Part shown: in pieces, positions 1,669 to 20,494 of the stretch
Numbering within the stretch: the stretch's first letter is position 1
Layout of the letters: each line of letters opens with the position of its first letter
Virus record (IMG/VR): IMGVR_UViG_3300046532_001033
Coordinates: 1-24,634 of that record
Source of the DNA: a virus
Reading direction: 5' to 3' (one strand)
Length of the DNA: 24,634 nucleotides
Notes under the pieces: model-generated
Databases searched by the model: none
What the model saw: only the letters and a program-made list of their open reading frames with translations
What the model was told of the DNA's origin: nothing
Made by a program: the position numbers and the translations under genes

Positions 1669-2106
1669 ATGAAAGAATCACTAAAAGTTCTGCAAGCAGC
1701 AGCAGATATACAACAAAAAAAATCAAACGATTATCAAAATCCTAATTCTAGGATTAAACAAGCTGACTATTATCCACATGGTTGTTCAACCATTTTAGAT
1801 ACAATGCATGCAAAAATATTACGTATGCATTCTGTTGTCGAAGCTATGGAATCAGATCCAAATTACACACCTAACTTTGAATCCCTTGAAGATTCATGTA
1901 TTGATATTATTAATTATGCATCATTCTTTGTTAGTTATTCAAAAGGTATGATGGAAGGTCAGTCACCAGATCGTGACTTTTTAAACAGGTATAAAGAAAC
2001 GGATGAAGTAAAACATTCCCAATTATACGACTCAAAATATTTAAAAATAATGCGAGAAGATGATGACTGGGATGTAAGTAAACAAATGCGAGATACTCAA
2101 GTCTGA
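1669..2106 (+). CDS. Nmad1 (DUF1599)-like nucleotide-modification-associated protein
   Basis: 145 aa, ATG 1669 with GGAG 8 nt upstream and promoter P1 just before it. The region KKSNDYQNPNSRIKQADYYP followed by DTMHAKILRMHSVVEAM resembles the Nmad1/DUF1599 family, which has a DYG-like segment, then Lys and Arg-rich helices, and recurs in phage nucleotide-modification loci. The rest is acidic and helical. Its TGA overlaps the ATG of the dCMP hydroxymethylase gene, which strengthens a role in the modified-nucleotide pathway. The exact reaction is unknown; a MazG-like nucleotide-handling role is conceivable. The family call is from memory of the motif and is moderate. Confidence 0.5.
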   Translation: MKESLKVLQAAADIQQKKSNDYQNPNSRIKQADYYPHGCSTILDTMHAKILRMHSVVEAMESDPNYTPNFESLEDSCIDIINYASFFVSYSKGMMEGQSPDRDFLNRYKETDEVKHSQLYDSKYLKIMREDDDWDVSKQMRDTQV

Positions 2107-2831
2107 TGTTAATTAGACCATATAGAGTTACAGATGTTCGTGACTATTTCATTAGTGCAAAGAATCATGATTATGCTACAACTACAGATAAGACAGGTGT
2201 AAAATGCCTTGAACTTATTGGTGCATCCTTTGAAGCTGATGAGCCTGCAATATTTGGTACACCTAATATAGAATACATTAAGAAAGAAATAGATTGGTAT
2301 CAGTCAATGTCTTTAAACATAAATGATATATATGATGAATTTGGTAAAGCTCCACCTGCAGCATGGCAATATGCAGCTAATGCAGATGGCATGATACATT
2401 CTAATTATGGTTACTTAATATATCATAAAGACAATGGTTACCAATATGATAATGTTGTACAAGAATTAAAAGATAATCCTGAAAGTCGTAGAGCAGTTAT
2501 GATATATCAAAGACCAGAAATCTGGAATGAATATGATCTTCTTGGTTGTAATGATTTCATATGTACTAACTCAGTAGCTTATTATATACGCGATGGTAAA
2601 TTAAATTGTTCAGTCTCTATGAGATCTAATGATGTCGTATATGGATATAAAAATGATTATGCATGGCAACAGTTTGTGCTATATGAATTAGCCGATGAAC
2701 TTGGTGTAGAGCCAGGTAAAATGATTTGGCAAGTACAGAACTTACATGTATACGAAAAACATTTTGGTTTAGTTAAACCATCAGAAACGGCTCATGGAGT
2801 TAACTTAAACTATAAAAGCGAGTGGAAATGA
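2106..2831 (+). CDS. 42: dCMP hydroxymethylase (T4 gp42-like)
   Basis: 241 aa, thymidylate synthase superfamily. It converts dCMP and methylene-tetrahydrofolate to 5-hydroxymethyl-dCMP. Diagnostic segments match T4 gp42: DKTGVKCLELIGASFEADEP near the N terminus, the nucleophile Cys153 in FICTNSV, and MRSNDVV followed by YGYKNDYAWQ. Asp184 is 31 residues after Cys153, the same spacing as Cys148 and Asp179 of T4 gp42, where Asp replaces the Asn used by thymidylate synthases to select dUMP. It ends with WQVQNLHVYEKHF. ATG 2106 overlaps the upstream TGA, and the glucosyltransferase ATG overlaps this gene's stop. The product should be phosphorylated and built into DNA as hydroxymethylcytosine. A plain thymidylate synthase is the alternative but fits less well. 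Confidence 0.9.
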   Translation: MLIRPYRVTDVRDYFISAKNHDYATTTDKTGVKCLELIGASFEADEPAIFGTPNIEYIKKEIDWYQSMSLNINDIYDEFGKAPPAAWQYAANADGMIHSNYGYLIYHKDNGYQYDNVVQELKDNPESRRAVMIYQRPEIWNEYDLLGCNDFICTNSVAYYIRDGKLNCSVSMRSNDVVYGYKNDYAWQQFVLYELADELGVEPGKMIWQVQNLHVYEKHFGLVKPSETAHGVNLNYKSEWK

Positions 2832-4099
2832 AGATAGGTGTAATATTAGGTAGAGGTGTTGAAGGCGTTGGTGTAACAAAGAATGTTGTAGAATTTCAAA
2901 AACTCTTTCCGGGAGTAGAAATATTTGCTACAATGGATAAGCTTTGGCCACGTAGAGAGTCTATGAATTTTCCAGTTACTTATTTTAAAGGTGCTGATTG
3001 GGATATAGTTACTAAACCAACCAAAAAGTTCCCTGATTTAGTTGCTTGTAACGATGTAGTCCATAGGATCAATCAGCTTGATCTCTGTATCATTTGGAGC
3101 ATACCTTCAAAGTCACATTCAGAAGAGTGTATAGACAATTTTATAAGACTGTTAAGTAATATTAATGTTCGTAAAGGTCTTGTACAAGTTGATCATAAAA
3201 TGGCATCAATCACACGTAATGCAAGACTTGCAGATGTTTGTAATAATGTAGATGTTTTAATGTGTCATTCAGTTGAGAATGATTTTGCAAGATGGACAAG
3301 AAAAAATAATGTAAAGACACCATTGACTGACATGGGTGTTGGATTTAATTTTAATAAAGATTATTGGAAACCAGTCGAAGATCAAGATACACGCTATGTT
3401 CGTTGGGTTGGCCGTACAGCAATGTGGAAAGGACCAGATGTTATGATTGATCTACATAATGATCACTTTCGTAAAGCAGGATTTATTACAGTGCTTGAAG
3501 GTTTAGAAGCTTCAATACAATATCCATTAGTATTATATAAGAATTCAAAAGAATTGAAAGATCGTAGAGATGTTATTAATTTCTTTAGGCCTGAAAAGGG
3601 TTTAGATATAAATGAAACTAGACATCCTGTTTATGGTTCAGAAGAAGAAGACAAAGGTGCATATCTTTATTCATCATATACACATTCTGAAATGATGGAA
3701 CGTATGAGTCTTGGTGGATTTGGTTCAGACCTTATGTACTTTAAGAAAAATCTTTATGGAAACAATCTTGAATATTGTCATACAGATTCATTTGCTGCAG
3801 GCGTTATACCAATATTCCATAAACATTTATGTGATAATATAATACATCGTGGACAGGAAAAACCAATTAGCCAATGTAGAAATACAGGAACAATTGCAGT
3901 TGATCATACTAATGCAGAAGATGTAACAAAGCTAATGGTTAATTTAAGAAATGATAATATGATGCGTGATGAAATGCGTATTCAAATGTATGAATTTTGG
4001 AAAGATCATTGTAGTGCAGATATTGTATATAAAGACATTATAGATAAAACATTAACCTTTGATAAAACAGAGGACGTTGGCTTGGAGGCATTCTTTTGA
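2828..4099 (+). CDS. agt: DNA alpha-glucosyltransferase (T4 Agt-like)
   Basis: 423 aa from ATG 2828, which overlaps the upstream TGA; a GTG two codons earlier is possible. The N terminus MKIGVILGRGVEGVGVTK lines up with T4 Agt. Further blocks are shared: RYVRWVGRTAMWKG (near residue 190), ITVLEGLEAS, and SEMMERMSLGGFG followed by an EY.H element and GVIPIF near the C terminus. T4 Agt moves glucose from UDP-glucose to 5-hydroxymethylcytosine in duplex DNA (GT-B fold). Its position directly after the dCMP hydroxymethylase gene supports the same substrate here. The sugar could differ, given the epimerase two genes downstream. Homology to T4 Agt is clear; the sugar donor is inferred. Confidence 0.85.
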   Translation: MKIGVILGRGVEGVGVTKNVVEFQKLFPGVEIFATMDKLWPRRESMNFPVTYFKGADWDIVTKPTKKFPDLVACNDVVHRINQLDLCIIWSIPSKSHSEECIDNFIRLLSNINVRKGLVQVDHKMASITRNARLADVCNNVDVLMCHSVENDFARWTRKNNVKTPLTDMGVGFNFNKDYWKPVEDQDTRYVRWVGRTAMWKGPDVMIDLHNDHFRKAGFITVLEGLEASIQYPLVLYKNSKELKDRRDVINFFRPEKGLDINETRHPVYGSEEEDKGAYLYSSYTHSEMMERMSLGGFGSDLMYFKKNLYGNNLEYCHTDSFAAGVIPIFHKHLCDNIIHRGQEKPISQCRNTGTIAVDHTNAEDVTKLMVNLRNDNMMRDEMRIQMYEFWKDHCSADIVYKDIIDKTLTFDKTEDVGLEAFF

Positions 4100-4656
4100 G
4101 ATTAAGAAATAACGCTTGGACATTTGAAGGTGTACTATCTAAAGATATGTGCGATGAAATAATTGCACAGGGTTTAGCAGCAAAAATTGTTAAAGGTGAT
4201 ACTGCTAATAAAAATATTAATAAGAAAAGGGATTCACAAATAGCTTGGTTATATGATCCTAATATAATGCAAATGTTAGAGAGATATATTCAAATAGCAA
4301 ATAGAGAAGCTGGTTGGAACTTCCAATGGGACTCAGTTAAAGCAATACAATTTACACAATATAAATCAGGTCAACATTATGGTTGGCATAGAGATACTGC
4401 TATTCCAGCGCGTAAAGATGGTAAAATAAGAAAGCTAAGTCTCACAGTAAATCTAAATAATGATTATGTGGGTGGTGAAATGTACATAGATACAGAATCA
4501 AATTATGGTAAAAAAGATCCTCAGCAACTTAAAAAATTACAAAAAACTGGGTCAATATCTGTATTCCCAGCTGATACATGGCATAAAGTTGCAAAGGTTA
4601 CAGAAGGTACCAGATATAGTTTAGTTGTTTGGTTAATAGGAGATGAATGGAGATAG
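4096..4656 (+). CDS. 2-oxoglutarate/Fe(II)-dependent oxygenase (P4H-like)
   Basis: 186 aa, TTG start at 4096 supported by GGAGG (4084-4088) 7 nt upstream; the TTG overlaps the previous stop. The double-stranded beta-helix metal triad is intact: His98 and Asp100 in YGWHRDTA and His163 in FPADTWHKV, with the 2-oxoglutarate-binding Arg173 in GTRYSLVVW. Such oxygenases are numerous in marine T4-like phages and mostly of unknown substrate. It sits between the DNA glucosyltransferase and the epimerase, so oxidation of a modified cytosine or of a sugar are plausible roles. The sequence looks like the prolyl-hydroxylase branch rather than TET/JBP. The enzyme class is secure, the substrate unknown. 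Confidence 0.85.
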   Translation: MRLRNNAWTFEGVLSKDMCDEIIAQGLAAKIVKGDTANKNINKKRDSQIAWLYDPNIMQMLERYIQIANREAGWNFQWDSVKAIQFTQYKSGQHYGWHRDTAIPARKDGKIRKLSLTVNLNNDYVGGEMYIDTESNYGKKDPQQLKKLQKTGSISVFPADTWHKVAKVTEGTRYSLVVWLIGDEWR

Positions 4657-4657
4657 C

Positions 4658-5392
4658 ATGAGAGTATTAATAACAGGATCAAGTGGATTTATAGGTTCAC
4701 ACTTAAAAAAGAAATTAGAATTACATGGTCATACCATTGTTGAATGGGATCATAAGATTGATAAAGCAATAGAAAATTTCGAACTTGGTGATGCTGAGTT
4801 TGTAATACACATGGCAGCATGGGCTGATGTTAGAGCAAGTATAAAAGATCCACAGCTTTATTGGGATAACAATATTACAAACACAACTAAAATACAAAAG
4901 ATGTGTTATCAATCTAATGTTCCATTAATATATGCATCATCTTCTTGTATTCACGAATGGCATAAATCACCTTATGGAATAAGTAAAAAGGTTAATGAAG
5001 AAACAGCATACGCAGGTCAAATTGGTTTAAGGTTTACTACAGTCTATGGCGGAGACGGTGCTGGTCGTGGTATGTTTATGGATAAACTTAAAGATCGTAG
5101 TCTTGAATATGTAACAAATCATGTTCGTGATTTTGTCCACATTGATGATGTTGTTGCTGCAATTACTCTTTTAATGAGTCAAACAAATCTTTATGGATTA
5201 AATCCTGCATATGATATTGGCACTGGCAAAGGTTACGTAGTATCAGAATTAGCTCAAGCTGGTGGATACGCCGTTGAACCTGCAGAAGGTGATGAATGCG
5301 AAGCACTAGATAACACTGCAGATATTACTGAAATTAAAAAACTTGGGTGGCAACCAACTACTGATGTATTGGAGTACATAAAATCACTATGA
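4658..5392 (+). CDS. NAD-dependent epimerase/dehydratase (extended SDR)
   Basis: 244 aa. ATG 4658 is chosen because it gives the usual MRVLITGSSGFIG start and has GGAG 5 nt upstream; an ATG at 4643 directly abuts a GGAG and is less likely. The Rossmann motif GSSGFIG is at residues 7-13. IHMAAWADV follows, then the catalytic Ser cluster ASSSC and the Y-x-x-x-K motif in SPYGISKK. It also has RFTTVYGG and DFVHIDDV, standard in nucleotide-sugar epimerases. It probably converts a UDP- or dTDP-sugar. Next to a DNA glucosyltransferase it could supply the sugar attached to DNA, but a role in host surface glycans cannot be excluded. Its TGA overlaps the ATG of the methyltransferase gene. Confidence 0.85.
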   Translation: MRVLITGSSGFIGSHLKKKLELHGHTIVEWDHKIDKAIENFELGDAEFVIHMAAWADVRASIKDPQLYWDNNITNTTKIQKMCYQSNVPLIYASSSCIHEWHKSPYGISKKVNEETAYAGQIGLRFTTVYGGDGAGRGMFMDKLKDRSLEYVTNHVRDFVHIDDVVAAITLLMSQTNLYGLNPAYDIGTGKGYVVSELAQAGGYAVEPAEGDECEALDNTADITEIKKLGWQPTTDVLEYIKSL

Positions 5393-6684
5393 CTGAAGAA
5401 GATAACTGGCCATGGCCAGACGGAATGAGGTGGGCAAGCATAGTACCACTCATTGGCGGTGAAACAATCGCAATGGAAAAGGTCTTTGAGAAAAAGCCAG
5501 CTTACATGATGACATATAACGGATTTGAAGGTAATGATCAACACATAGTAGAACATTATAATAATCAACAACCAGATCCTGAAAAGCCTGGCTATGTTCC
5601 TTATTACATATTAGAAAATAAACATAAGAATGGATTTATCTGGCATGGCCAACAACAAGGTGAAGGACCTGAAGGAGAGAAAAATGGAAGGTATGTTGAT
5701 GTAGTTAATACTATATGTCCATGTGCTGGTCTTTCTTCATTAAATGTTGCACCATCTGGTGAAGCAGAAGTGAATGATTATATGGCTAAGACAGCTAAGT
5801 ATGTATTAGAAAATATAGGGCCAAAAGTATTATGGGGTGAGAATGCTCCACGATTAGCTACTAAACTGGGTGAGCCTGTTGTAAAAAAATTAAGAGCTAT
5901 AGCAAAAGAGAATGGGTATACCTTCTCTTTGTATAAAACAAAAAGCTTATTACATGGATTAAGTCAAGTTAGAGATAGATCATTTTATTTTTTCTGGAAA
6001 GGCGATGCTGTACCTATGTTTGATTGGTATGATAGACCTAATGAAAAGATAGAAGATACAATTCGTAATGTCAAGAGGGATCCAGCAGACCCGATGTCTG
6101 CACTGGCTAATACCAAAACACCAAGTAAGGATGACCTATATTATAGGTATGTGTTAGAAGTATTACATAACGGCATGAAACATAGTGACTTTGTTAAAAC
6201 AATAAAGAAAAGTTGTAATATTCAAGACTATATTGAAAAACATAGTGATTACCGACAATTAGCAAAATGGCTTGAAGGCTTAGGTGAAACTAAAGCAAAA
6301 GATAAAGCTATAAGGAATGCAGAAAAACTTGAAAGCGGTGGTAATATAATGAGAAGAACAAGTGAAATACCAGCCGATTATATAGGTGCATTTGTAGGTC
6401 ATATGCCATTAAGTCTAACTCACCCCGATGAAGACAGATATTTGACATATAGAGAATGTATGGAAATTATGAAATTACCTAGCGATTTTAATATAATAAA
6501 CCCTAAGAAGAATCTTAATCATTTATGTCAAAATGTTCCAGTGACTACTGCAATGGATATGGCATATAATATTAAAAGATTTTTATTTGGTAGATCAGAA
6601 ATGATATATGATGACTTCGTTGTACAATGTAATAAGTCACATTCAATTAAAACCACACCTAATACCTTAGATAAATTCCTATAA
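5389..6684 (+). CDS. divergent C5-cytosine DNA methyltransferase
   Basis: 431 aa with the motif order of C5-cytosine methyltransferases in altered form. Motif I is PLIGGETIAME (residues 20-30). The Pro-Cys nucleophile is in ICPCAGLSS (Cys112). The ENV equivalent is GENAPRL (150-156). Motif VIII is LSQVRDRSF (191-199). The target-recognition region is followed by YLTYRECMEIMKLP (351-364) and motif X, QNVPVTTAMDMA (381-392). It should methylate, or otherwise modify, cytosine C5 using S-adenosylmethionine. In a phage that also encodes dCMP hydroxymethylase the purpose is not obvious: it may mark residual cytosine or act with the 2OG oxygenase. The motif I departure and low similarity to standard enzymes leave activity uncertain. 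It is the last gene of the P1 operon. Confidence 0.75.
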   Translation: MTEEDNWPWPDGMRWASIVPLIGGETIAMEKVFEKKPAYMMTYNGFEGNDQHIVEHYNNQQPDPEKPGYVPYYILENKHKNGFIWHGQQQGEGPEGEKNGRYVDVVNTICPCAGLSSLNVAPSGEAEVNDYMAKTAKYVLENIGPKVLWGENAPRLATKLGEPVVKKLRAIAKENGYTFSLYKTKSLLHGLSQVRDRSFYFFWKGDAVPMFDWYDRPNEKIEDTIRNVKRDPADPMSALANTKTPSKDDLYYRYVLEVLHNGMKHSDFVKTIKKSCNIQDYIEKHSDYRQLAKWLEGLGETKAKDKAIRNAEKLESGGNIMRRTSEIPADYIGAFVGHMPLSLTHPDEDRYLTYRECMEIMKLPSDFNIINPKKNLNHLCQNVPVTTAMDMAYNIKRFLFGRSEMIYDDFVVQCNKSHSIKTTPNTLDKFL

Positions 6685-6726: not shown

Positions 6727-7854
6727 ATGAAGAAATTAATCTTACTATTCCTTGCAGTACAAACTTCTGTATTAGCAGGTACAAATACCTGGTATAAACC
6801 AGGAAATTACCCTGAAGACCCTCGAAATTTTGCTAAAGATATGCAAGAGATTAAAGGGAATTATCGTTATTATAGATTTGAATCAGATCTAAGAAAAGAT
6901 AAAGATGTATTAGATGAATTTAAAACTAATGACGTAAATGGAATCATTAGTTACTTACAATTTGAAAATAATAAAATTGTAATAGATGAAGTAGATATGC
7001 CACCTAAAGTATTTAATGGTTTATTACCATCAAATTCTGTAGGTAAAAGTTTAGTGTCTTATGTTACAGGTCATGCAATTTGTCAAGGATACATTAGTAG
7101 TGTTGATGAAGTGATGGATTGGGATTTACTTGATAATACTTTATATGAAGATCAAGCATTAATTGATATATTAAATATGTCAGCAGGTGATCAAGCATTG
7201 ATTGGGCAATCACTTCACCCAAAACAAGATAATATGTTGAAAACTAATAACGTAAATTTAAATATGACTTCATTAGAAACAATAATGAATACACATATGC
7301 AAAACACTATTAAAGGAAATCCAATGTATAACTATAGTGCTTTAACAACTCACGTATTAATGAATTACGTAATGCATAAAGCTGGTGATAATTGGGAAAG
7401 ATTACTCTATAGGGTTTTTGTTGAAAATGCAAAAATAAAAAATAAAGTTTATTTTCAAAAAACACGAAAAGGTAAAGGTGATTCACTTAGATATAGTTTT
7501 TATGCAGATAGATACGACTACTTAAGAATTGCAAAAGCAATAATGAATGATTGGAATAATAATACGTGTGTTGGTAAATATTTACAAACAGTTTATGATA
7601 GAAGAATTCCAAAGAACGAAGATGATCTTTTTGCATGTAAGACATGTGATGTCAATAACAATACAAGAAGTTATGGAGGTCAATTTCATTTTGATGTTGT
7701 TGGAATGGAAGACAGAAAGATAATAGGTATGAGTGGATTTGCAGGACAAAACATTGTAATTGATATAGATAATGAAAAAATCATAGTGATTAATTCAAAG
7801 TATAGCAATTTCGATTGGCAAGAATTAGTTTATGAAACAATAAAGGAGATATAA
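6727..7854 (+). CDS. secreted beta-lactamase/DD-peptidase-fold serine hydrolase
   Basis: 375 aa. It begins with a signal peptide, MKKLILLFLAVQTSVLA then G, with a type I cleavage site expected after Ala17, so the product should reach the periplasm. Serine penicilloyl-transferase motifs are in order: SxxK as SVGK (Ser104, Lys107), the Tyr motif in YNYSALTTHVLMNYV (201-215), and the third-strand motif in GMSGFAGQ (334-341) followed by IVIDIDNEKIIVI. This matches class C beta-lactamase/esterase-like proteins. Substrate unknown: peptidoglycan, an amide or an ester are all possible. There is no ribosome site because the promoter lies directly before the ATG. It is an odd first gene for an operon that continues with uvsX and helicase. 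Confidence 0.78.
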   Translation: MKKLILLFLAVQTSVLAGTNTWYKPGNYPEDPRNFAKDMQEIKGNYRYYRFESDLRKDKDVLDEFKTNDVNGIISYLQFENNKIVIDEVDMPPKVFNGLLPSNSVGKSLVSYVTGHAICQGYISSVDEVMDWDLLDNTLYEDQALIDILNMSAGDQALIGQSLHPKQDNMLKTNNVNLNMTSLETIMNTHMQNTIKGNPMYNYSALTTHVLMNYVMHKAGDNWERLLYRVFVENAKIKNKVYFQKTRKGKGDSLRYSFYADRYDYLRIAKAIMNDWNNNTCVGKYLQTVYDRRIPKNEDDLFACKTCDVNNNTRSYGGQFHFDVVGMEDRKIIGMSGFAGQNIVIDIDNEKIIVINSKYSNFDWQELVYETIKEI

Positions 7855-8901: not shown

Positions 8902-10238
8902 TGCAGATTGAAACATTAATCTTACGCAACTTAATGTTGAATGAGGAATATACAAGAAGTGTAATCCCTCATTTAAAACTACGATATTTTGAAGAACCAT
9001 ATAGAGCAGTCTTTAGTGAGATCATTGACTTTGTAACTAAATTTAATAAGTTACCAAGTGCTGATGCATTAAATATTGAATTAAGGAATAATCCTAAAGT
9101 TGGTTCTGATTCATTAGCTCTTATACCAGAAATCAGTGTGCCTGACGGTGAACAAACTGTTGATTGGTTAAATGAAAAAACTGAGAAATGGTGTCAAGAT
9201 AGAGCAATCTATTTAGCAATCATGGACTCTATCAATATAATTGAAGGCAAACATGAGACATTAGATAAGAATGCATTACCTGATGTTTTATCTGAAGCTT
9301 TAAGTGTTAACTTTGATATGAGAGTTGGCCATGACTATGTAGATGATTCTGATATGCGTTATGAATTTTATCATAGAGATGAAGAACACCTCCCATTTGA
9401 TTTAAGTATGTTTAATAAAATTACTAAAGGTGGTCTTGTTAACAAGAGTTTAAATGTTGCTTTAGCAGGAACAGGTGTAGGTAAGTCATTATTCATGTGT
9501 CATGTCGCTGCAGGCGCTTTAACACAAATGAAAAATGTATTATATATAACTATGGAAATGGCAGAAGAAAGAATTGCTGAACGTATAGATGCTAACTTAA
9601 TGAATGTACCTATTGACCAATTAGAAAATCTATCGAAAGATATGTTTGATAAGAAGATGCATAAGCTTACTGATAAAGGTGTAGGTAAACTTATTGTAAA
9701 GGAATATCCTACAGGCGCAGCAAGTACTACTCATTTTAGATCATTACTTAAAGAATTAAAAGTCAAACGTGATTTTAAACCTGATCTTATTTGCATAGAC
9801 TATTTGAATATATGTGCTTCATCAAGAATGAAAGCAGGTGGTGCTATTAACTCATACACATATGTTAAAGCTATTGCTGAAGAATTGCGTGGCATGGCAG
9901 TAGAGTTTAATTTACCTATTGTCACCGCCACACAAACTACAAGAGGTGGATTCGGTAATTCAGATGTAGGCTTAGAAGATACATCAGAATCATTTGGTCT
10001 ACCAGCAACTGCAGACTTAATGTTTGCTATTATATCTACTGAAGAGTTAGAAGGTTTAAATCAATTAATGATTAAACAATTAAAGAATAGATATAATGAT
10101 CCAACTGGAACAAATAAAAAGTTTGTTATTGGAGTTGACAGGGCTAAAATGCGATTATATGATGTAGAAGATACTGCCCAAACTCTCAATATAGATGACC
10201 CACAAAAAGCAACACAATATGAGGACTTTAACGTATGA
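8901..10238 (+). CDS. 41: gp41 replicative DnaB-type helicase
   Basis: 445 aa; the ATG shares its first base with the last base of the uvsX stop. The N-terminal helical domain (residues 1-140) is followed by the RecA-type core with Walker A AGTGVGKS (189-196), TMEMAEERIAERI (217-229) and Walker B DLICIDYLN (295-303). TATQTTRGG and the arginine-rich QLKNRYNDP segment follow. This is the T4 gp41 family hexameric helicase that unwinds ahead of the polymerase. The usual partner primase gp61 is not in the window, although an AEP-like primase gene is at 263. Its end overlaps the dCMP deaminase start by 4 nt. Confidence 0.92.
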   Translation: MQIETLILRNLMLNEEYTRSVIPHLKLRYFEEPYRAVFSEIIDFVTKFNKLPSADALNIELRNNPKVGSDSLALIPEISVPDGEQTVDWLNEKTEKWCQDRAIYLAIMDSINIIEGKHETLDKNALPDVLSEALSVNFDMRVGHDYVDDSDMRYEFYHRDEEHLPFDLSMFNKITKGGLVNKSLNVALAGTGVGKSLFMCHVAAGALTQMKNVLYITMEMAEERIAERIDANLMNVPIDQLENLSKDMFDKKMHKLTDKGVGKLIVKEYPTGAASTTHFRSLLKELKVKRDFKPDLICIDYLNICASSRMKAGGAINSYTYVKAIAEELRGMAVEFNLPIVTATQTTRGGFGNSDVGLEDTSESFGLPATADLMFAIISTEELEGLNQLMIKQLKNRYNDPTGTNKKFVIGVDRAKMRLYDVEDTAQTLNIDDPQKATQYEDFNV

Positions 10239-19550: not shown

Positions 19551-19778
19551 ATGTTAGATAAAATCACAAGCGGCGTAGCAGCTGCAACAACGGTAGCAAT
19601 GAGTTTAATTGGTCTTGCGATCATGTTACAAATTGTTTTCGGCGGAGCAGTACCTTTCTTAGGTGGCGACGTTATTGGTACCATTATTGGTATCGTCTCT
19701 CAGCTAGGTGACGCTGGTTTAGTAGGCTTAATTTCTGCAGCGGTATTGTGGAAGCTACTAACTCATGATGATGCATAA
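19551..19778 (+). CDS. small two-helix membrane protein, holin-like, 75 aa
   Basis: ATG 19551 with AGGAGA 4 nt upstream; an in-frame ATG at 19482 would run through the hairpins and is rejected. Two hydrophobic helices are seen: ATTVAMSLIGLAIMLQIVFG (residues 12-31) and a second around TIIGIVSQ and GLVGLISAAVLW (44-67). A glycine-rich turn (GGAVPFLGGD) lies between them, with short charged ends. Size and layout fit a small phage holin or an abundant inner-membrane protein. Codons are richer in G+C than in neighbours, which with promoter P3 suggests high expression. It is co-transcribed with the tmRNA. Function not proven. Confidence 0.7.
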   Translation: MLDKITSGVAAATTVAMSLIGLAIMLQIVFGGAVPFLGGDVIGTIIGIVSQLGDAGLVGLISAAVLWKLLTHDDA

Positions 19779-19780
19779 CA

Positions 19781-19864
19781 TTCATTATTCAATGAAGTGA
19801 AAACGACGTAAAGGTAAAAGTAGGAGCACTTAACACGTGGGTTCAATTCCCACCTCCTCCACCA
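19781..19864 (+). ncRNA. ssrA: permuted tmRNA, acceptor piece
   Basis: The tRNA-like 3' end is complete: T stem GTGGG/CCCAC (19837-19841, 19849-19853), T loop TTCAATT, acceptor 3' strand CTCCTCC (19854-19860), discriminator A and encoded CCA (19862-19864). No complementary 5' acceptor strand lies upstream; it occurs downstream at 19998-20004. That order is the hallmark of a circularly permuted (two-piece) tmRNA gene. The pairing gives seven base pairs including G3-U70 (20000 with 19858), the alanine identity element used by AlaRS. A hairpin TTCATT/AATGAA (19781-19796) may be the start of the piece; its exact 5' end is unknown. Confidence 0.9.
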
Positions 19865-19871
19865 TAAGTAT

Positions 19872-20024
19872 ATGAAAGAAATAATTTGGCATTTTAGTTG
19901 TAAGATTTGTTTAGGTTGGTGGTCAATAGCTGTTTCAGATAATTGGCAACCAAAGAAATTATTTTGTCCACATTGTGGTAAACCGTATATTTATGATGGG
20001 GGAGACACGGCTTCGATTAGGTAG
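19872..20024 (+). CDS. zinc-ribbon protein encoded within the tmRNA spacer, 50 aa
   Basis: ATG 19872 lies 7 nt after the CCA end of the tmRNA acceptor piece. The frame fills the spacer and stops (20022-20024) 27 nt inside the tmRNA coding piece. The product has a zinc-ribbon pattern, SCKIC then CPHCG, with FSCKICLGWWSIAVSDNW between. It resembles small zinc-ribbon proteins of T4-like marine phages. Its last residues (GGDTASIR) are encoded by the tmRNA acceptor stem and D-loop analog. There is no obvious ribosome site. Cutting of the precursor would destroy the message, so translation and tmRNA maturation exclude each other. Confidence 0.65.
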   Translation: MKEIIWHFSCKICLGWWSIAVSDNWQPKKLFCPHCGKPYIYDGGDTASIR

Positions 20025-20161
20025 CGGATCCGCTTGAGACTCGTCAGTCAACAAAGACTTTAAAATGAAAATTTAATCGGCAATCAAAGCGATTATGCAC
20101 TAGCTGCTTAGTTTAGTTAGTTGAGGTTTTCTCCGGAGTTCCTTATCACCCAATACTCCGG
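19998..20161 (+). ncRNA. ssrA: permuted tmRNA, coding (mRNA-like) piece
   Basis: It starts GGGGGAG (19998-20004), which pairs with the acceptor strand at 19854-19860. The D-loop analog GGCTTCGATT (20009-20018) follows. A palindrome (20024-20033) and a small AGTC/GACT hairpin (20046-20059) precede the tag reading frame at 20079. TTTAATC before the resume codon GGC resembles the UAGUC preceding the E. coli resume codon. After the tag stop there is a U-rich segment and the terminator hairpin. The RNA rescues stalled ribosomes with host SmpB and AlaRS. All key landmarks are present; its processing into two pieces is inferred from gene order. Confidence 0.9.
20079..20111 (+). other. tmRNA proteolysis-tag reading frame
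   Basis: Eleven codons from resume codon GGC to TAG encode GNQSDYALAA. Length and ending match the E. coli tag (ANDENYALAA). The terminal YALAA is the signal read by ClpXP/ClpAP and SspB-type adaptors. An in-frame TAA lies a few codons upstream, so translation must begin within this segment. Confidence 0.85.
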
Positions 20162-20171
20162 TCTTTTTTTT
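20133..20171 (+). terminator. intrinsic terminator after the tmRNA
   Basis: CCGGAGT (20133-20139) pairs perfectly with ACTCCGG (20155-20161), followed by TC and eight T residues (20164-20171). It closes the P3 transcript 14 nt before the next ATG. It is the only strong rho-independent terminator I see in the window. Confidence 0.85.
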
Positions 20172-20185
20172 ATATAACTAATGCT

Positions 20186-20494
20186 ATGATAAACCTTACT
20201 GACCACGCTGTTGAAAAATTAACTACATTACTGAAAGGTCAAATGCTTCGAGTGTTGGTTAAAACTACAGGCTGTTCAGGCCTAGCATATCATTTAGAGT
20301 ATTCCCTCTATAAAAATATCACTGACGATAAAGAAATAGTCAAGGGTATTCCTATTGTTATAGATCATAAATCTTTAGCTTATGTAGATGGATGTGAGAT
20401 AGACTATAAGTACGAAGGTCTTAATGAAGGCTTTGAATTCTATAACCCTAAAGAAAAAGCCAGATGTGGCTGTGGAGAATCATTTACGATATGA
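20186..20494 (+). CDS. HesB/IscA-like A-type Fe-S carrier
   Basis: 102 aa. The three conserved cysteines of A-type carriers are present: Cys30 in TTGCSGLAY and Cys94/Cys96 in RCGCGESF, with the spacing of IscA. The central DHKSLAYVDGCEIDY segment also fits. It binds or transfers Fe-S clusters or iron. Such genes are common in marine T4-like phages. It precedes nrdB, which needs a di-iron centre, so iron supply to NrdB is an attractive but unproven role. Its TGA overlaps the nrdB ATG. ATG 20186 has no clear ribosome site and follows the terminator closely; its promoter is not evident. Confidence 0.85.
   Translation: MINLTDHAVEKLTTLLKGQMLRVLVKTTGCSGLAYHLEYSLYKNITDDKEIVKGIPIVIDHKSLAYVDGCEIDYKYEGLNEGFEFYNPKEKARCGCGESFTI

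Follow-up and report, generated by a model that had tools for sequence, protein, structure and literature searches.

A putative protein gene nested in the spacer of a circularly permuted phage tmRNA gene

Introduction

Can the part of a two-piece tmRNA gene that is expected to be discarded on maturation hold a protein gene, and how might such a gene be expressed from a transcript that also has to become tmRNA? The question is raised by a 24.6-kb virus record of IMG/VR (IMGVR_UViG_3300046532_001033; "the window" below is the whole stretch of 24,634 nucleotides analysed). It carries genes for UvsX, a DnaB-like helicase, ribonucleotide reductase and a T4-type RNase H, and by this gene content its source is a T4-like phage. 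A first-pass annotation of the locus had recognised a phage-encoded circularly permuted (two-piece) tmRNA, correctly as we find, and had overlooked the protein gene that fills its spacer, the 19872–20024 reading frame described here. Excerpts of the paper on phage Melnitz (PMC9004378) give 53 two-piece tmRNAs in phages, mostly aquatic. Since phage-borne permuted tmRNAs have thus been published, the permuted phage tmRNA is itself not new as a kind, and the least ordinary feature of the locus is the nested protein gene.

Results

The permuted tmRNA gene and its neighbours

The tmRNA gene was located at about 19804–20131 by ARAGORN, Rfam and direct reading. The Rfam covariance model tmRNA_permuted (RF04321) matches 19804–20111 over its full model length at 71.9 bits (E 2.9e-12; gathering score 47), and ARAGORN calls a permuted tmRNA at 19772–20202 with the tag GNQSDYALAA at 20079–20111. 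The parts and the flanking genes are as follows.

19551–19778, + strand: gene for a 75-aa glycine-rich protein, probably with two TM segments (ORFs in L002, L006, L007 and L271)
19804–19864, + strand: tmRNA 3' (tRNA-like acceptor) piece (RF04321, ARAGORN, direct reading)
19837–19853, + strand: T arm (direct reading)
19854–19860, + strand: 3' acceptor strand CTCCTCC (direct reading)
19861–19864, + strand: ACCA (direct reading)
19865–19997, + strand: spacer (intervening sequence), 133 nt, expected to be removed on maturation (comparison with sister phages)
19998–20131, + strand: tmRNA 5' (mRNA-like) piece, with D-loop GGCTTCGA (RF04321 to 20111)
19998–20004, + strand: 5' acceptor strand GGGGGAG (direct reading)
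20079–20111, + strand: tag reading frame GNQSDYALAA plus stop (ARAGORN; kept in 17 relatives)
20133–20171, + strand: likely intrinsic terminator with the stem CCGGAGT...ACTCCGG and a T run behind it (direct reading)
20186–20494, + strand: HesB/IscA-like gene, directly downstream of the tmRNA (PF01521, E 1.7e-12; synteny)

The acceptor piece with its CCA lies upstream of the mRNA-like piece, and the positions first assigned to the T arm, the CCA end and the 5' acceptor strand hold on direct reading. A 5' piece able to pair with 19854–19860 is present at 19998–20004, with seven of seven positions paired; the third pair is the G3-U70 wobble, which is kept across the window's clade. The tag frame that had been proposed, GNQSDYALAA ending at 20111 in the hydrophobic LAA, is borne out by ARAGORN and by 17 related phage copies, whose tags include GNQSDYALAA, GNQNDYLLAA, GNQIDYALAA, GNTSDYALAA, GNDSVYALAA, GNNDYLLAA and others; as the frame is kept through synonymous changes in these copies, we take it to be the real tag frame. 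The 3' acceptor piece is invariant or changes in a compensatory manner in 17 relatives. The terminator stem, not listed by the automated terminator scan owing to its long loop, is invariant or nearly so among relatives, and the 3' end of the mature 5' piece would lie near it. The agreement of ARAGORN with Rfam, together with the tag frame and likely terminator kept in 17 copies, shows that the tmRNA is real and very probably functional. No smpB gene was found in six related phage records, all possibly partial, and the phage tmRNA presumably uses the SmpB of its host. Rfam gave no match to a group I intron core in the window.

The gene for the 75-aa protein sits directly upstream of the tmRNA in all relatives read, and no family match was found for the longer ORF call of this gene. 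Elsewhere in the window, genes for a thymidylate-synthase-like protein, a DNA alpha-glucosyltransferase (PF11440), a 2OG-Fe(II) oxygenase, an NAD-dependent epimerase and a C5-cytosine methylase stand in a row at 2106–6684 and a dCMP deaminase lies at 10235, which together look like a DNA hypermodification cluster. The 375-aa protein encoded at 6727–7854 begins like a signal peptide, may contain the SxxK and YxN motifs of a serine hydrolase, and has no Pfam match.

Origin of the tmRNA and its tag

The suggestion that the phage took ssrA from a host with a permuted tmRNA gained no support from the tag pattern. Scanning 84,980 species for tags of the form GN-x-x-DY-x-LAA picked up one-piece tmRNAs in Deltaproteobacteria and Bacteroidales, together with a single permuted copy (L271); a host origin by tag pattern was rejected, as nothing matched but one-piece tmRNAs from unrelated bacteria and one contig that resembles a phage. 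The permuted copy, which has CCACCT in place of CCACCA, lies on a 5-kb contig with the gene order of this phage, and the contig belongs to a Rhodobacteraceae MAG (G011) with eight permuted tmRNA matches. The phage gene order and the presence of eight permuted tmRNAs in one MAG indicate that this is probably a phage contig binned with the MAG. The unusual tag is typical of this phage lineage.

A zinc-ribbon-like reading frame fills the spacer

An open reading frame begins 7 nt past the CCA, at 19872, and ends at a TAG (20022–20024) inside the tmRNA 5' piece.

19872–20024, + strand: nested zinc-ribbon-like ORF, 50 codons plus TAG (homologues L002–L011 and L138–L178; pN/pS 0.17)

The predicted product reads MKEIIWHFSCKICLGWWSIAVSDNWQPKKLFCPHCGKPYIYD up to codon 42, after which the predicted RNase P site falls, and continues as GGDTASIR, so that the last eight codons and the stop are predicted to overlap the mature tmRNA. 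Among embedded copies the pN/pS of 0.17 compares with 1.4 and 1.8 in the other two frames, which are rich in stops; judged by these substitutions, the nested frame is under purifying selection. Constraint is weaker (0.54) in the overlapped last eight codons, as expected if the tmRNA sequence dictates the codons there. The product has the arrangement CxxC...CxxC with IWHF and WW-S-A motifs, and its cysteines and key residues are invariant in 24 homologues. An AF2 model (mean pLDDT 80, residues 46–50 below 50) has the whole zinc-ribbon fold in place by codon 42, followed by a disordered overlapped tail. Since the model is confident for the ribbon and not for residues 46–50, the tmRNA-encoded tail is probably a passive extension.

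Searches gave little indication of function. The protein of the window has no Pfam match and only a weak PHROG match (phrog_21525, E 0.024); Foldseek with the model found no match at E < 0.001, the resemblance being generic, to zinc ribbons and ribosomal proteins, and no similarity to known rescue factors was found. The neighbours of the ORF are ribonucleotide reductase and the HesB-like protein, and the window shows no clear Shine-Dalgarno sequence for it.

Sister phages with and without the nested gene

Five more IMG/VR contigs (L002–L006) share the nested layout, always with a spacer of 133 nt; their embedded homologues are 88–98% identical and occupy exactly the same position, and the six contigs come from different metagenomes. 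About a dozen sister phages have a plain 27–38-nt hairpin spacer and no nested ORF (comparison set L007, L016, L046, L048, L061, L103, L123, L184, L186, L199 and L271). In one of them, L007, a 27-nt hairpin makes up the spacer, and the zinc-ribbon gene stands outside, between hesB and nrdB, in a gene order that is otherwise the same (nrdA, TM protein, tmRNA, hesB). By this comparison of gene orders, a neighbouring zinc-ribbon gene has moved either into the spacer or out of it; short spacers are the commoner state, which suggests movement into the spacer. Remoter homologues of the zinc-ribbon protein lie in unrelated gene contexts. The shortest spacers in this analysis, 3 nt (CCA-TAT-GGGGG), were seen in the permuted tmRNAs of L110 and L130.

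The spacer cassettes also appear to move between tmRNA genes. Between the window and L002 the spacer is 99.2% identical, the tmRNA 5' piece 92% and the flanking genes 75–81%. No difference separates L003 from L005 between nrdA and the spacer's end; beyond that point, in the tmRNA 5' piece and hesB, the two sequences part abruptly, so that their tmRNA looks like a recombination junction. A single origin of the embedded state was not recovered on the tmRNA tree, which is poorly supported and gives three changes. Given that the embedded state does not form one clade and that spacers reach 99% identity, cassette exchange by recombination in the conserved tmRNA arms is the best explanation.

A predicted helix covers the start codon

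In the minimum-energy fold of the whole gene, the start region of the nested ORF pairs with its own end, which places the ORF in the loop of a lengthened acceptor hairpin.

19863–19874, + strand: acceptor-extension helix, 5' strand, running from the CA of CCA to the start codon (ATG) of the nested frame (predicted fold, 12 pairs)
19984–19995, + strand: acceptor-extension helix, 3' strand, within codons P38–D42 of the nested ORF (predicted fold)

The 12 pairs, two of them G-U, stack on the acceptor stem across a small internal loop, and a 12-bp helix was reached in 13 of 200,000 shuffles. All 19 pairs of acceptor and extension are kept across the window's clade, in which there are only five distinct embedded sequences. 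A compensatory change is present in L006 (T19869C with A19989G, giving I40V in the nested protein); this single pair in the window's clade is not significant alone (93 of 500 shuffles). In the sister phages the short hairpin stands where the window has the extension helix. A start codon buried in this manner could equally mean very low expression.

Three further coding sequences in permuted-tmRNA spacers

We found three further nested sequences in the spacers of other phages' permuted tmRNAs, unrelated to the zinc ribbon (group 1) or to each other; representatives match RF04321 at 84–144 bits. Group 2 is a Cys-rich ORF (MVICSCRDIRD...CCGTCQDEFLVD, with GGD... beyond the predicted cut) on 18 contigs (L280–L297). 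Its Shine-Dalgarno sequence, AGAGGA, abuts the CCA, it reads into the 5' piece, and its pN/pS is 0.12. Group 3, recognised by the sequence WYYTENEW (...WYYTENEWSRLGMLGPLPPERN...LLTNEY, then GGD beyond the cut; L309–L326 and others), likewise reads into the 5' piece. No clear start codon is seen, the frame staying open through the T arm; its pN/pS is 0.11 over nine codons, and no acceptor-extension helix was found. On one group 3 contig a manA RNA motif lies about 1.4 kb downstream of the tmRNA (L317:4652–4868).

Group 4 encodes a 41-residue TM protein on 15 contigs (pN/pS 0.25). Here Shine-Dalgarno, ORF and the ORF's own TGA exactly fill a 138-nt spacer, the stop lying just before the predicted cut, and the tmRNAs that contain it have differing acceptor stems (GGGGGTG, GGGCCTG, GGGGCCG). 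The extension helix, in which the Shine-Dalgarno sequence lies, shows 100% pairing across 11 sequences, and four of its pairs have changed in a compensatory way; the acceptor adds three more, and G3-U70 is invariant. In two of the three other groups, as in the window, a helix that prolongs the acceptor stem covers the start codon or the Shine-Dalgarno sequence. Signs of exchange and relocation recur as well: L419 and L425 share 79% identity in their group 4 spacers between flanks that cannot be aligned, and in L432 the group 4 TM gene stands directly upstream of a tmRNA with an ordinary spacer, which together with the zinc-ribbon gene of L007 points to relocation next to or into the tmRNA in two families.

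Across the four groups pN/pS is 0.11–0.25, compared to 0.9–2.6 in other frames, and the excess of third-position changes is significant in all three groups tested. Among 53 IMG/VR stretches with permuted-tmRNA spacers of 112–142 nt, one of the four sequences is present in 36 and none in the other 17, a tally of contigs and not of independent events.

Discussion

On balance we favour the view that the spacer of a permuted tmRNA here hosts a protein gene whose single precursor would act first as mRNA and then as pre-tmRNA, with initiation shut by maturation. The tmRNA and the nested ORF would be transcribed as one precursor serving in turn in the two roles. On the nascent RNA the ATG would be free and a ribosome could initiate; once transcribed, the end of the ORF would base-pair with the region around its start, which would block initiation and complete the acceptor-extension hairpin. 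As in other permuted tmRNAs, the two pieces would then be freed by RNase P, acting where the mRNA-like piece begins, and by 3' processing behind the CCA, and a cut exactly after codon 42 would leave a 133-nt RNA with a start codon and without a stop. Late ribosomes on such a stop-less RNA would be substrates of trans-translation. The zinc-ribbon protein may thus be made in a burst tied to tmRNA synthesis and then shut off by maturation.

The gene could instead be a passive insert, that is, an ordinary permuted tmRNA whose spacer puts up with added DNA, into which a zinc-ribbon gene landed by recombination and from which it is translated with no regulatory link to maturation. We regard this as possible, with the balance against it. 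Long non-coding structured spacers are common among permuted tmRNAs (17 of the 53), L007 has the gene intact elsewhere, and spacer exchange is seen; what a passive insert does not account for is that in three groups of unrelated sequences the spacer ends re-form a helix over the start codon or Shine-Dalgarno sequence, and that this helix covaries in the group with the best sampling.

Returning to a precursor that serves both as mRNA and as pre-tmRNA, its broader form is one we put forward tentatively and as less likely than not. The spacer would be an exchangeable gene slot with its own control, translated only from the nascent precursor and silenced by the fold and cut that make the tmRNA; in some phages the cut would in addition turn the message into a substrate of the released tmRNA. 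Taken from the positions of the stops, the processed spacer would be a stop-less message in groups 1–3 and not in group 4. That the spacer RNA is nonstop in every case is therefore ruled out by the TM protein, with its own stop before the cut.

This last point bears on an unlikely alternative modelled on ArfA of E. coli, whose mRNA lacks a stop codon and is repressed by trans-translation. Maturation would make the ORF nonstop, the product would be tagged and destroyed unless rescue fails, and the zinc ribbon would be a rescue or translation factor. The ORFs of groups 1–3 do lack a stop in the spacer and read into the 5' piece codon-aligned with the cut, and the zinc-ribbon fold is complete at codon 42 with a disordered tail in the model. 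The unprocessed precursor of the zinc-ribbon ORF has a stop, and the nonstop form is predicted only if the RNA is processed like other permuted tmRNAs. The group 4 stop inside the spacer speaks against such a circuit, making it possible for some phages and not a general rule, as do the lack of similarity to known rescue factors and of a significant Foldseek match. The likeness to ArfA is hypothetical, and ArfA is a different protein encoded outside the tmRNA gene.

We consider it very improbable that the spacer ORF is an untranslated relic, its similarity reflecting recent insertion and RNA constraint only: the ribosome-binding site in the window is indeed weak, but the pN/pS contrast between the nested and the other frames in four groups and the third-position excess in the three tested argue for coding. 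An assembly chimera or a mis-called tmRNA, conceivable as all relatives are metagenomic and searches with the tmRNA and the nested ORFs gave no relative from an isolate, is refuted in practice by six contigs from different metagenomes sharing the 133-nt layout, three further families repeating the nesting and full-length covariance-model matches.

The locus can be set beside known systems. In excerpts of PMC9004378, Methylophilales phage Melnitz and Pelagibacter phage Mosig likewise have a permuted ssrA with its own tag frame in T4-like marine phages; the Mosig spacer is a 43-nt hairpin without an ORF, whereas that of the window has 133 nt and an ORF, and those excerpts make no mention of a nested protein gene in phage permuted tmRNAs. 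Alphaproteobacterial permuted tmRNAs (RF04321, RF01849) share with the window the order of the pieces, G3-U70, the encoded CCA and a tag frame, but have short spacers, most of the matches listed spanning 184–280 nt (289 genomes searched). Two long bacterial spacers among the matches listed, L407 and L408, were considered as further coding cases, and coding was not established. Excerpts of a recent tmRNA survey (PMC11915505) describe one tRNA gene and one repetitive element in permuted intervening sequences and report no protein-coding gene there; the intervening sequence can hold foreign content in both cases, a tRNA gene or repeat there and a protein gene here. In the open-licence literature we found no description of an ORF in a tmRNA intervening sequence. 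A tmRNA gene with a group I intron encoding a homing endonuclease also has a protein gene inside it, but there it is contained in a self-splicing intron of the T loop, whereas the window has no intron, the ORF lies in the spacer between the pieces and its product is not an endonuclease.

Where a structural RNA carries a protein gene in its excised part, and gene and mature RNA have bases in common, one transcript would link two products. Four unrelated coding sequences at one site, together with the signs of exchange, suggest a recurrent solution in phages, and permuted-tmRNA spacers are a new place to seek small phage proteins missed by annotation. Nested genes might also explain why a permuted tmRNA is retained by some phages. 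The coupling of ribosome rescue to phage gene expression becomes testable and, if the spacer is indeed an exchangeable slot, it would by its own wiring tie ribosome rescue to a phage effector in some phages.
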